NCBI RefSeq assembly: GCF_042242105.1
Contig: NC_092013.1
Coordinates: 12,269,618 to 12,333,617 of the forward strand
Direction: 5' to 3'
Length of the DNA stretch: 64,000 nt
Source: Pempheris klunzingeri
Taxonomy: Eukaryota; Chordata; Actinopteri; Acropomatiformes; Pempheridae
The first letter of the stretch is position 1. The number at the start of each line of letters is the position of its first letter. The position numbers and the translations under genes were made by a program. The notes under the pieces are model-generated. The model made no database searches. It saw only the letters and a program-made list of their open reading frames with translations, and had not been told where the DNA came from. Below, one piece after another: positions 11,148-58,136 of this stretch.

Positions 11148-33458
<22,311 letters not shown>

Positions 33459-42452: not shown

Positions 42453-43750
42453 AATCATCTCACTCAACCAATTAAGAACCAGTATTACTGTTATGCTCAG
42501 ATACCACTTCCTCTTGGTAACATGAATTCTTCAAAATAAAACATAATATATTTATAGAACAAACTATCTATAATCAAACATCCGTACTTTTTAACACTTA
42601 TTTATTACAATGTCTATTACAATGAATGTTTTTAACCCTTTTATGAAATGTTGTTAACTAAAACACATACTATAGTTTTTAACCTGGCTACACAGAGAAG
42701 TGGTAATTTTTTGTGAAAGAAAGAAACAAGTTATTAAATCATTTAGCATAATAATTTCATTATAACTCTCACTAATATTGTCAAGTAAGCATGAAGTTAT
42801 TGAAATAATGCTATTTTTGTGTCAATTAAACAGTAATTTGAGGGGATCCAAACAGTACGGTGGCCGGGAGGTGCAAAACAATTTTACAATACGAGAAACA
42901 CTTTTACAAAGCTGGAGACAAATTTACATTTTAGAAAACATTTTTACAAATCACATTACATTTTTACTTGCGGCCGAAACAAATTTACAAGTAACTTTTT
43001 CAACCGGAAAGGGAATGTACCAACTGTCGAGTAGAACCGGAAGTGATAAAGAGTTCATGGCGACCCACGATGGACGGCAGTCAAGCGGTCTTTTGCCCGT
43101 TTTGTGGCAAACATATAAGCCGATTAACGCGGTATATTCCCTTTCCGGTTGAAAAAGTTACTTGTAAATTTGTTTCGGCCGCTTGTAAAAGTGTTTCGTC
43201 ACTTGTAAATTTGTCTCGGCGTTTGTAAAAGTGTTTCACGTCTTGTAAATTTGTTTTCTCAAATGTAAATTTGTCTCAGGACTTGTAAATGTGTTATGGC
43301 AATGTAATTTTGTTTTCTGATTTGTAAAAATGTTTTCTAAAATGTAAATTTGTCTCCAGCTTTGTAAAAGTGTTTCTTGTATTGTAAAATTGTTTTGCAC
43401 CTCCCGGCCACCGTAAAACAGTATCAATAGATTACATAATGTTAATTATATGTTATTAGTTATGTTGCCTGTCATGTTTGAATCATGTGTACAATTTGTG
43501 ACAAAGGCTGCAGTTATCTGGCCCTGAAAAGGAGAAGGTGAAGAAAGAGGCCCTGGAGCTGTCATTGAAGTACAGTTTTGTGACCCCACTCACATCCATG
43601 GTGGTCACCAAGCCTCAAGGGGAGAGCACAGACGTGCTCCATAAGCCCAGAGAAGGTGGTGGAACACCAATGACATGGCCAACTCGTTTAGCACATGCGC
43701 CACCCACGAAGACTGGGTTATCAAGGTCTGCGCAAAGTGAGGACACCATA

Positions 43751-46800: not shown

Positions 46801-49800
46801 ACAACGTTTTTAGTTCAACCAAAGAGACATTTCCCAGCTAAACTCAATCAATCAATCAATCTTTATTTATATAGCGCCAATTCACAACAGCGTTATCTCA
46901 AGACGCTTTACATATAGAGCAGGCCTAGACCAAACTCTTTAATTAGAGAGAGACCCAACGATTCAGGAATTAAAAATTCCCACATGAGCAAGCATCAGAT
47001 ATTATATTGAGCAACAGTGGCAAGGAAAAACTCCCCTTTAACGGGAAGAAACCTCAAACAGACCCAGACTCAATGTGGGCGGCTTCTGTCAGGTTCCACG
47101 TTGGGTGGAGGTTGGAGAGAGAGAGAGAGAGACAGAGACAGAGAGAGAGAAACAACACAAACAGCAACCAACGTACCAGCAGTGACTATAGCACTAGCTA
47201 CAGGAGTGTGACTAAAAGATTAGCAGTATAGTATTATTGAAACGCACTAACAGCACTAACAATAGGAATGTGACTAAAAGATTAGTAGTATGATATTATT
47301 GAAAAACATGACGAGTGTCCGACGATCCGCAGCAGTGATTCATGAAGCCAGAAAACCACAGCAGCAGGACCAGGACCAGGATCCACAGGAACCTGAGAGA
47401 GATAGCAAGTTAGTGGCAGACATTAGGCTGACATGAGACATAATGATGGAGAGGAAGAGGAGGATAGAGAATAGAGGAGCTCAGTGCACCATAGGAGTCC
47501 CCCGGCAGTCTGAGCCTATAGCAGCATAACTAGGGGCTGGTCTAAGGCCTGATCCAGCCCTTAACTATGTGCCTTATCAAAAAGGAAGGTTTTTAGGTCT
47601 ACTCTTAAATGTAGTGAGGGTGTCTGCCCCCCGAACCCAAAAGGATCTTGGAGAGAAAGGGAAGGTTGGATATAGGTCTATAGTTAGCTAACACACCTGA
47701 ATCAAGAGTAGGCTTTTTCAGGAGAGGTTTAATTACTGCTAGTTTGAAGGACTGTGGTACATAGCGTGTTCATACATATCCAGTAAGGACGTATTAATTA
47801 AGGGCAGGACCTCCTTAAGTAGTCCAGTAGGAATGGGGTCTAGGAGACATGTTGACGGTGTAGATGAGGAGATTATTGAGGCCAATTCAGAAAGATCAAT
47901 TGGAGAAAAACAGTCCAAATACACATCAGGTGTAACAGCTGTTTCTATGGTTCCTAGGTTTGAAGTTGGATCAGACCCTGTTGAGGGCAGGAGGTGCTGA
48001 CTTTTGTTCTGGCTCTTTGTCAGCCTGGCTATTGTGCTGAAAAGAAATCTAGGGTTGCTTTTATTTTCTTCTATTAATGAGGAGTAGTAGGCGGCTCTGG
48101 CATTACAGAGGGCCTTTCTATAGGTTTTAAGACTATCTTGCCAGATTAAACGGGAGTCTTCCAATTTGGTGGCACACCATATCCTTTCTAGTTTTCTTGA
48201 ATATTGCTTAAGCTCGCGTGTCATCGGAATTATACCAGGGAGCTTGTCTCTTTTCCTTAATTCTCTTCTTTTTTAGAGGGGCGATAGAGTCTAGTATCAT
48301 TCGCAGTGAACCTGCAGCACTATCGACCAGATAATCAATTTGGGAGGGGCTAAGATTAGCATGGGGGTCATCCATAGCACAGGGACACACTGGCTGAAAT
48401 ACTGAAGGAATCACCTCCTTAAATTTGGCAACAGCACTATCAGATAAGCATCTAGTGAGGACCTCTCTGTCATATGGTGCATAGTCTAGTAACAAGAAAT
48501 CAAATGTTATCAGGTAATGGTCCGATAGAATAGAGTTATGTGGGAAGATGGTTCAATTTCAACACCATAAGCCAAAACAAGGTCAAGAGTGTGGTTAAAA
48601 CAGTGAGTTGATTCATTTACACTCTGAGAGAAGCCAATTGAGAACTCCAACCACTGAGTTACCGTACACTACTTTTACCTTTTATACTTGGAGTACAGTT
48701 TGCAAATAATACTTTTGTACTTTTAATTTAATGGGATTTTGAATGACAGACTTTTATTCATAACCATGTATTTTTTCATTGTTGTACCCGTAGTTTTACT
48801 TGAGTGAAGGATCTGTATACTTCCTCCACTACTGCTGGTTTGATTTGTGGTGCTGAGCTGCATTTGTTCTCTTTTGTACTAGAGCTGTATGTGAATGGTG
48901 AGCTTGATTCAATAGCATATGGAGGCTTCAGAAAGATTGCCATCCACTTCAAGACTGACCAGCATGTTGAGATTGACCCCAAGGTAATCACTGTACGAGA
49001 CGGACAGACAGTGACCATCCACTCTCGACAGGATCACATCACAGCTGAAAGGTGACTTTGCATTATAATGGAAAGAATTCGGTTACAATGGCATTCAGTG
49101 GTGTGTGCAGACCCTCTGGGGCTTAAGGTCACATCACAGCAACTTAAAGAATTTTTTTGACACATTCACTTTCCTGTGTAGAGTTATTACAGGATTGATT
49201 AGTAGCCATCAATCTTAACTTGCGTGTCTGTTTTACGGAAGAGTGATGTGACCAGCACCCATTTCCAGTATTCATGCTTAGCTGCTGGCTATAGCTTCTT
49301 ATTTACTGTACGGTGGTTTCAATCCACTCATCTGCTCTCTGCAAGAAAGCCAATCAGCATGGTTCCTAAAATGTCAAACTTTTTTTGAAAAAAGTGCTCC
49401 TATAATGGCATGTCAGAACAGAAAGAACAGCTCAGCACTGAGAGAAAAAAGAGCAGGGTCATCCCCAAACACCCCACGTCACTGATGATATTCATGATGT
49501 TGAATTTGTCATTAATTCACTATTATAAACAAATGTTAATTGCCTTTTATAACTCATGCTCACTTTAATGTACCTGCACATCCGTGGCACACAGATGATT
49601 CTAATTATTTCAGATGGTAAGAGTTGGAGTGTGCAGAATGTGTTTTGATTGACATCTTCCTCACTCTCCCGTTAGCTTTGTTGCACTAAAGTGGGACAAA
49701 TCACACCTTAATGAATGAACCACATTCGTTCGTAATGGTACCTTGAGTCTGGTGACTTGACACTGTTATACTGAGCGTAGTTTTGCGACATGACCTGTGA

Positions 49801-56300: not shown

Positions 56301-58136
56301 TTACATGCACATATGCATATATTCTGCAGCTCTGATGCAGATGTCTGGTGCAAAATGTTACATTCAATTTACAATTCAATTCCCATTTTGCCAAATTTCA
56401 AACTGACATATTTGGTATCATTGGAAACTTTGTGATCTCTCAGCTTGGGTCTGTAATGACTGACCCTAGATTTATACTTGTGTCCTCTTCAGGAGAAAAT
56501 TGGGGTGTTTGAAGACATCAACCTCCAGCTCTCACCATGCGTGATGGTAAAGTATTCGCAACCTGTAAGTTACATATATATAGTGTCCCCAGTTACTGAA
56601 CTTGAATGACTCATTTATTTGTATCCGTTTGCGCAGGTGAGAGTAAAGGGAATGAGGCATGAACTGGGTCCATTCTGTTTTAATAACAGTGAGTCTGACA
56701 CAGTTTGTTATTACAGAAGCTGATTCTGGTTGGAACGTGATATATTTTGCAAAAATACAGCACCTGTCCCTTAAACTTTTTATAAATGGGGTTTTGTTTT
56801 GTCCTAATTGCAGCTGACAGGCAGCGCTGGAGTCTCTTATTTGTTGGTGTTATGCTGCTGATTTGCTTGACAGTGCTCATATTCTTCCTCCTCCGTGGCT
56901 TTGTCAAGAGTACGTTTTTGTTTTTTGTTTTTTTTCATTTTGCATTTACAATGTTAAATATGTAAGAATACCAGAAGAAACATGCTGTACATGAGGAAGA
57001 CAGAGCAGTGTCTAATTGCTCTGCTCTGGAATTTGCAACCAAGCCATTATAAAATATGCATTATCCAACTTGAACAGATTTTCCTCAGGCATTTCACACA
57101 AAGGCTCCCTTTATTTTCCTCATAGACCAAATCTTGTTTACTAGATCTTGGAATTATTAATAACGTCTGCGCTGGTCATGCATATGTTTAACCTACATAC
57201 AGTTTAAGGACTCAAGTATTTGTGTCACTGAAATGATAAACATCCTTGTACTGTATCTTTGCCCTCTGGTGTATTTACTCTTAATTTTCTTGCTTTTAAA
57301 GAATGGGTGTGGAGCTGGCATCATGGAGGATTTGTAGAGAGTGAGTATTTTCTACTTATAATTTAAAAAAATTCATGATGATGATGGAGGATGCCATCTC
57401 TCTGACAATTGTCCATTTGTTTTTATCATCTAAAGTAGGCAGAAAGCATCGAGTTGTGTTGCTGAGCCCCCCAGATGTGGATAATGGTGTTTTGGAGTCA
57501 ATATGTCGACTCGGCTCCCTGCTCTGTAACCAGGGCTTCAGTGTGTCTGTGGACCAGTGGAGCAGGAGGGAGCAATGCACTTGGGGGCCTCTGCCATGGC
57601 TGCACTCCCAGGTGCTGGAGCTCAACAGCCAGGGCGGCCGAGTTGTGCTCGTCTTAACCCGCAAAGCCTTGGAGAGAGCAGAGGAGTGGACCCATCGGCG
57701 CAAAGACGTTATCAAGACGAAGGAGGAGGACAAGGGTCTGTCTCAGATATGCTCCTCTTACTCTGATGTGTTCACAGCCTGCCTGTGGCTCATCCAAGTG
57801 GACATGCAGCTGGGCAGAGCTAGAGAACGTTTTGTTCTGGTGAAATATGACTCCCATCCAAGAGGTGACAGGAATCTACCAGAGCTCCTTCAGGGGCTGC
57901 CCCTGTTCCAGCTACCCTCTCAGACTCAGGCTCTCATGTCTGAGCTCTCTGTAGCAAGGACAGGGAGGCAACCAGGTAGGACGACATGGACAGGGTGGAA
58001 ATGGAGTGCCTCAGATAGACGGAGAGCAAAGACGAAAGAGGGACTCGACCAGCAGAAAGCATCACACTGGAAATACGCTGGAGCTGAAAAAAACTTGGAA
58101 ACAGAGCCTTTAAAGCGCCTACAGATGTCATGCTGA
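53385..58136 (+). CDS. Interleukin-17 receptor with SEFIR domain (closest to IL17RC)
   Basis: Thirteen coding exons in phase: 53385-53492, 53814-54051, 54812-54915, 55033-55144, 55252-55293, 55380-55501, 55780-55840, 55966-56180, 56493-56546, 56637-56688, 56814-56909, 57302-57340 and 57436-58136, giving 647 residues. The signal peptide is about 1-20 (WSIWSILLTLPISA). The Cys-rich ectodomain has LCCKDGVAC, an acidic loop EEDYIEETRN, TVCYNAVSTMPRCKKVEF, and SCPFKHTD followed by LSAPCRLEGEVWPC. One membrane helix is at about 375-398 (LLFVGVMLLICLTVLIFFLL). The last exon encodes the SEFIR domain (RKHRVVLLSPPDVDNG, VDQWSRREQCTWGPLPWLHS, RVVLVLTRKALE), which recruits Act1. IL17RC pairs with IL17RA to sense IL-17A/F. 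The ectodomain order fits IL17RC, though GPLPWL is also IL17RE-like. CRELD1 follows, as in human. Confidence 0.88.

Follow-up and report, generated by a model that had tools for sequence, protein, structure and literature searches.

Within a 64,000 bp stretch of the Pempheris klunzingeri genome, which was analysed as a whole and is termed the window here, lies a 560 bp sequence with inverted arms in which a short motif recurs about every 20 bp. The locus raises the question of what type of mobile element this is, and of what the repeated motif, or core, does within it. The reading favoured here, at a probability of roughly 0.6, is that of a non-autonomous foldback transposon of IS3EU-like type. 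Its arms are probably built as arrays of sites for a transposase, and in this it is comparable to Galileo.

Structure, copies and age of the element

The foldback element spans positions 42856-43415 of the window exactly, as the preliminary description had it. It has the termini TACGG..CCGTA and the tip sequence TACGGTGGCCGGG. Its parts are as follows.

42850-42855, no strand: left target-site duplication, AAACAG
42856-43021, forward strand: left inverted arm, 166 bp, with the tip TACGGTGGCCGGGAGGTGC (repeat search)
42875-42990, reverse strand: core array of the left arm, with five clear units plus a degenerate one
43022-43130, forward strand: loop separating the arms, 109 bp (from the arm coordinates of the repeat search)
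43070-43138, forward strand: candidate protein start of 23 residues, with no significant Pfam match; a putative remnant of a coding parent
43131-43415, reverse strand: right inverted arm, 285 bp, read from its tip at 43415 (repeat search)
43162-43396, forward strand: core array of the right arm, 12 units spaced 20 bp apart except for one step of 21 bp and one of 19 bp
43416-43421, no strand: right target-site duplication, AAACAG

The repeat search paired the arms in two sections, an outer one of 112 nt with 94% identity (42856-42967 with 43304-43415) and an inner one of 84 nt with 87% identity (42938-43021 with 43131-43214). Perfect tips of 19 bp had been described; they are indeed perfect but longer, as the first 37 bp of the two ends are identical in the window copy. 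The tip 13-mer, with two mismatches or fewer, is found twice in the window compared with 0.19 matches expected, and folding of the whole element strand gives z = -27. The element thus displays what is expected of a foldback: long inverted arms, internal tandem repeats and little else. A comparison of the element with Rfam gave no match up to E = 1.

The element is abundant in its own genome, where at least 252 matches were found in 645,938,514 bases (439 contigs); the count is a lower bound, with 172 candidates seen and 40 scored. The preliminary description had allowed for a single-copy sequence, and this can be set aside. Thirty-nine other loci were sampled and searched with the tip 19-mer, allowing up to four mismatches. 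Both ends were detected at 32 of these loci and one end at six, and one locus had no tip in the stretch fetched; in a wider stretch round this locus (L053), one tip appears. A perfect tip is present at L053:4353 (C5:15394352), outside the stretch fetched initially; ∼490 bp separate it from the part of copy L033 that was matched. Together with the window copy, the 32 loci form a set of 33 two-ended copies that range from 439 to 846 bp in length. A plain satellite, i.e., a head-to-tail array that lacks transposon ends, was considered as well; it does not fit these 33 copies, in which the arrays lie between tips and of which 28 have perfect target-site duplications.

The 6 bp duplication reported earlier, with the sequence AAACAG, is perfect on both flanks of the window copy, and perfect 6 bp duplications flank 28 of the 33 copies (perfect duplications of 7 bp: 0/33). 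The imperfect ones have one mismatch (three copies), two mismatches (one copy) or four mismatches (one copy). With the orientations of the 28 perfect copies pooled, G or C occupies the outer positions of the duplication in 39/56 cases, and A or T occupies the next positions in 44/56 and the middle positions in 43/56.

In-register arms differ from their consensus by a mean of 1.2% at all sites and 0.9% outside CpG; these are 36 of 72 arms, and the other 36, whose ungapped identity with the reference arm was below 90%, were dropped. The family has moved recently, as had been proposed. Copies with six units look older; their best matches with the window copy are 84-87% identical. The element is real and tidy in structure, exists in many copies and has been mobile in recent times, and that it is a mobile foldback element is virtually certain.

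The order of modules in the copies, determined by BLAST, bears on the history of the family. A single loop (X-A-B-X) is present in 16 of the 33 copies, seven in one orientation and nine in the other. Eight further copies have one doubled-loop order in common (L016, L019, L025, L027, L036, L024, L034 and L044; five and three per orientation), and because this order is shared, the rearranged form itself has probably moved several times. The remaining nine copies have module orders of their own. The candidate protein start in the loop (best Pfam E of 0.027, not significant) suggests how the foldback might have formed: the 5′ end of a coding parent, with its first codons, may have become joined to an inverted copy of itself.

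Termini and superfamily

The superfamily was not recognised in the preliminary description. IS3EU elements have TA..TA termini and a target-site duplication that is usually 6 bp (PMC10045372), and in rust fungi they display TAYGG..CCRTA termini, a 6 bp duplication and terminal inverted repeats (TIRs) longer than 30 bp (PMC12730594). The ends of the window copy, TACGG..CCGTA, fit this pattern; duplications of 6 bp are the rule in the family (28/33 perfect), and the TIR exceeds 30 bp, with 112 nt at 94% identity and the first 37 bp identical. Judged by its ends alone, the element is likely of the IS3EU type.

IS3EU is among the Repbase superfamilies (PMC5753468) and is included in a table of transposable elements of four teleost species, with 17838 copies in one column (PMC4746887). 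The ends, the 6 bp duplication and a TIR longer than 30 bp are common to the present family and to IS3EU/GingerRoot elements as these appear in the available parts of PMC10045372 and PMC12730594. The element here differs in having no transposase and in its two ends, each a long arm that carries an array of cores in 20 bp steps; no such arrays are described in the available parts of the same two papers. Among the matches listed for literature on IS3EU, GingerRoot, foldback elements and fish, there is no title on this family, and Repbase or Dfam may already catalogue it. The family itself is new unless Repbase already holds it; most of its features resemble those of known transposons.

A foldback of another superfamily, e.g., of hAT or P type, might carry TACGG ends and 6 bp duplications by coincidence. 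The transposase of the family was not identified here, which leaves room for such an origin, and hAT families with duplications of 5, 6 and 7 bp exist (PMC12730594). However, the five terminal bases and the length of the duplication both fit IS3EU, and an origin in another superfamily is very improbable.

Eight stretches of 10 kb were scanned for tips and long open reading frames, and no parent element was seen in them. Seven of the stretches (L048-L054) lie around copies that lack a tip; one tip but no second is present in each, and these seven incomplete copies are read as truncated. The eighth (L055) surrounds a two-ended copy. By eye, long open reading frames in the stretches resembled a LINE, a transposase of Tc1-like type and a GTPase gene of the host. 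In a viral contig collection, neither the tip 19-mer nor a two-unit pattern has an exact match. In a general genome contig collection, the tip 19-mer has two exact matches (L056 and L057), both bacterial and both without core units; these are taken as chance matches, and L057 looks by eye like an ABC-transporter coding sequence.

Spacing and length of the core array

The right arm carries 12 units with the core TTGTAAAnnTGTnTC or near variants of it. Their starts, at 43162, 43183, 43203, 43223, 43243, 43263, 43283, 43302, 43322, 43342, 43362 and 43382, agree with the 20 bp phase previously noted, including the one 19 bp and the one 21 bp step. The left-arm array, with five clear units and one degenerate, has steps of 20, 20, 20, 20 and 21 bp. 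Within the 64 kb window, 16 sequences match the core pattern at one mismatch or fewer, and 15 of them are inside the element; in 100 shuffles, the mean was 0.65 matches and the maximum three. The core is A/T-rich and fixed, and except in a few units it has a TGTAAA half and a TGT half. An alternation of two unit types had been described for both arms; it is present in the inner part of the array, but strict alternation fails in the outer part. The units are not hairpins, as three pieces of the array fold no better than shuffled sequences (z of 0.97, -0.16 and 0.30).

The two-ended copies have 66 arms, and in all 66 the distance from the tip to the start of the first core is 34 bp. The number of units is less uniform: 12 in 33 arms, 10 in 10, 11 in seven, six in seven and nine in four, with 17, five, four, three and two units in one arm each. 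Most arms are therefore arrays of 6 to 17 core units.

Arm length changes by whole units in this family. The 10-unit arm differs from the six-unit arm by an extra block of 79 bp that consists of four units and is bounded by a pair of identical ATGTAAATTTGTCTC cores. In the 12-unit arm there are two additional inner units (41 bp). The 846 bp copy L043 (301-1146) has a right arm of 17 units in which the 79 bp four-unit block is present three times in succession, and this arm is an array expansion. Recombination or slippage between identical cores would allow the array to grow or shrink with the 20 bp step kept. An array of evenly spaced sites can thus grow by whole units with its register kept.

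These length changes limit what can be read from the spacing. Of 616 inter-unit intervals, 603 are 19-21 bp and 13 fall outside this range, in a count based on a motif with two mismatches or fewer that stopped at gaps of more than 45 bp and skipped steps of less than 12 bp, so that larger phase breaks are left out. Some of the out-of-range intervals stem from a degenerate unit. Conservation of the phase across copies, proposed earlier as a check on the array, is thus borne out as a description; it is no test of function, because in-register copies are ∼1% apart and have inherited the phase, and because changes by whole units keep it without selection. Within the array, two indels are present in eleven intervals, and the probability of two or fewer ranges from 0.011 to 0.623 over the assumed divergence and indel rates. 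The shortage of indels is not decisive, and with arms changing by whole units, the 20 bp phase is weaker evidence than the identity of the cores.

The spacing had also been taken to place the sites on one face of the DNA. The helical repeat of DNA is 10.5 bp per turn, and 20 bp is equivalent to 1.90 turns, or about -34 degrees per step. Neighbouring sites face nearly alike. The twelve sites span 220 bp from the first unit to the last, and with each step ∼34 degrees short they would make roughly one full rotation, with no relation in facing between the two ends of the array. A single face for the entire array is not supported, and the argument from a two-turn spacing is weaker than the preliminary description held.

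Candidate roles of the cores

From sequence, the cores are best read as an array of binding sites, and the chances that the sites are those of a transposase are put at about even. One line of evidence is the pattern of variation within the array. When the 12 units of the arm consensus are compared in pairs, their cores are on average 81% identical and their spacers 27%, which is the chance level; this is in keeping with the earlier observation that the core is kept while the 5-6 bp between cores vary. The 15/5 division into core and spacer was drawn from these same units, but the variance between columns is independent of the division, and the observed value was reached in 0/5000 simulations on a star phylogeny and in 0/5000 on a duplication tree, both uniform models. 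Two coarser measures give less strong results: the number of invariant columns was reached in 1/5000 (star) and 154/5000 (tree) simulations, and that of highly variable columns in 68/5000 and 48/5000. The difference in identity suggests past selection on the core.

Recent copies give a different result. The preliminary description had proposed to align copies and see whether cores are conserved while spacers drift, and among recent copies this was not found: variant sites outside CpG amount to 32/177 in the cores and 9/46 in the spacers (Fisher p = 0.83). Non-CpG divergence appears ∼3-fold lower in the cores (0.55%, compared with 1.6% in the spacers). This gap was rejected as a sign of constraint, as one segregating spacer site carries most of it and it vanishes when variant sites are counted. 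Among recent copies there is no visible constraint on the cores, and the binding-site reading gains no support from them; a lack of constraint is expected if copies are neutral once inserted.

It is conceivable that the units are a passive minisatellite in a transposon arm, i.e., by-products of slippage whose likeness and step are inherited and of which no protein reads anything beyond the tip. Changes of arm length in whole units between identical cores are consistent with this, as is the absence of constraint in recent copies, and for several of the assumed rates chance could account for the shortfall of indels. Furthermore, the arms with two, three and four units (L020, L026 and L009) are in copies with perfect target-site duplications, which indicates that many sites may not be needed; loss of units after insertion is possible. 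On the other hand, plain slippage copies whole 20 bp units and leaves unexplained why spacers are 27% and cores 81% identical. The fixed distance from the tip to the first core also argues against a passive array, although shared ancestry could produce it as well. A passive minisatellite is considered rather unlikely.

The cores might instead bind a host protein, such as a forkhead-like factor or an architectural protein, that helps the parent to be expressed or brings the ends together by bending. The A/T-rich fixed core with its two halves in nearly all units would suit such a protein, and TGTAAA resembles part of a forkhead site. A single forkhead site is shorter than the core, however, and both arms carry the core beside the cut ends, which is less readily explained by a host factor. 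This alternative is quite unlikely.

If the cores are sites of a transposase, a mechanism can be outlined. A parent element would encode an IS3EU-type DDE transposase, which would move the foldback by cut and paste. The cores would be its recognition sites, and several transposase molecules would load on each arm before the ends pair and are cut.

Arrays of this type have parallels in other transposons. The Foldback (FB) elements of Drosophila also have long inverted arms of short tandem repeats, some of ∼20 bp; they differ from the present family in host, ends and target-site duplication. Sleeping Beauty-type elements differ in having two sites per end, a TA target and a Tc1/mariner transposase. 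The likeness to them is that their bipartite TIRs hold more than one transposase site per end, in the form of tandem repeats in longer TIRs (cited in PMC3688188). Galileo, of the P superfamily in Drosophila, likewise has long, internally repetitive TIRs and non-coding copies composed of two TIRs (PMC3573991). Its arms change by the number of tandem repeats and by recruitment of inner sequence (PMC3573991), and additional sites bound by its transposase lie in the tandem repeats (PMC3688188). In outline, the change of arm length by repeat number is the same here; transposase sites within the repeats are known from Galileo and putative in the present family. Galileo differs in its ends and superfamily and in its F repeats of ∼210 bp, compared with 20 bp here, and the arms here have more units.

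The available parts of the IS3EU literature examined hold no description of how IS3EU transposases recognise their ends. One bolder proposal, unlikely as it stands, is that each arm is a landing array for IS3EU transposase that is tunable by repeat number: about a dozen sites just under two turns apart would be covered by a filament wrapped once round the helix, and the series from 2 to 17 units would record selection on site dosage. A young family whose arms have 2 to 17 near-identical units in one genome would be a natural dosage series, and it could show whether many subterminal sites aid mobility, as proposed for Galileo.

Several other features are present in the window. A U6atac minor spliceosomal snRNA gene of full model length (135 bits) is at 241-368 on the forward strand. 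Exons at 17663-19702 on the same strand have a protein kinase match (17663-18043) and an OSR1_C match (19139-19702) and appear by eye to belong to a WNK-type kinase gene. A degenerate, telomere-like CCTAAC array of 9.8 copies is at 32824-32881, and a 177-amino-acid open reading frame at 47739-48272 on the reverse strand, with no significant Pfam match, looks by eye like a remnant of a non-LTR retrotransposon. An exon at 57345-58136 on the forward strand encodes a SEFIR domain, which occurs in interleukin-17 receptors.
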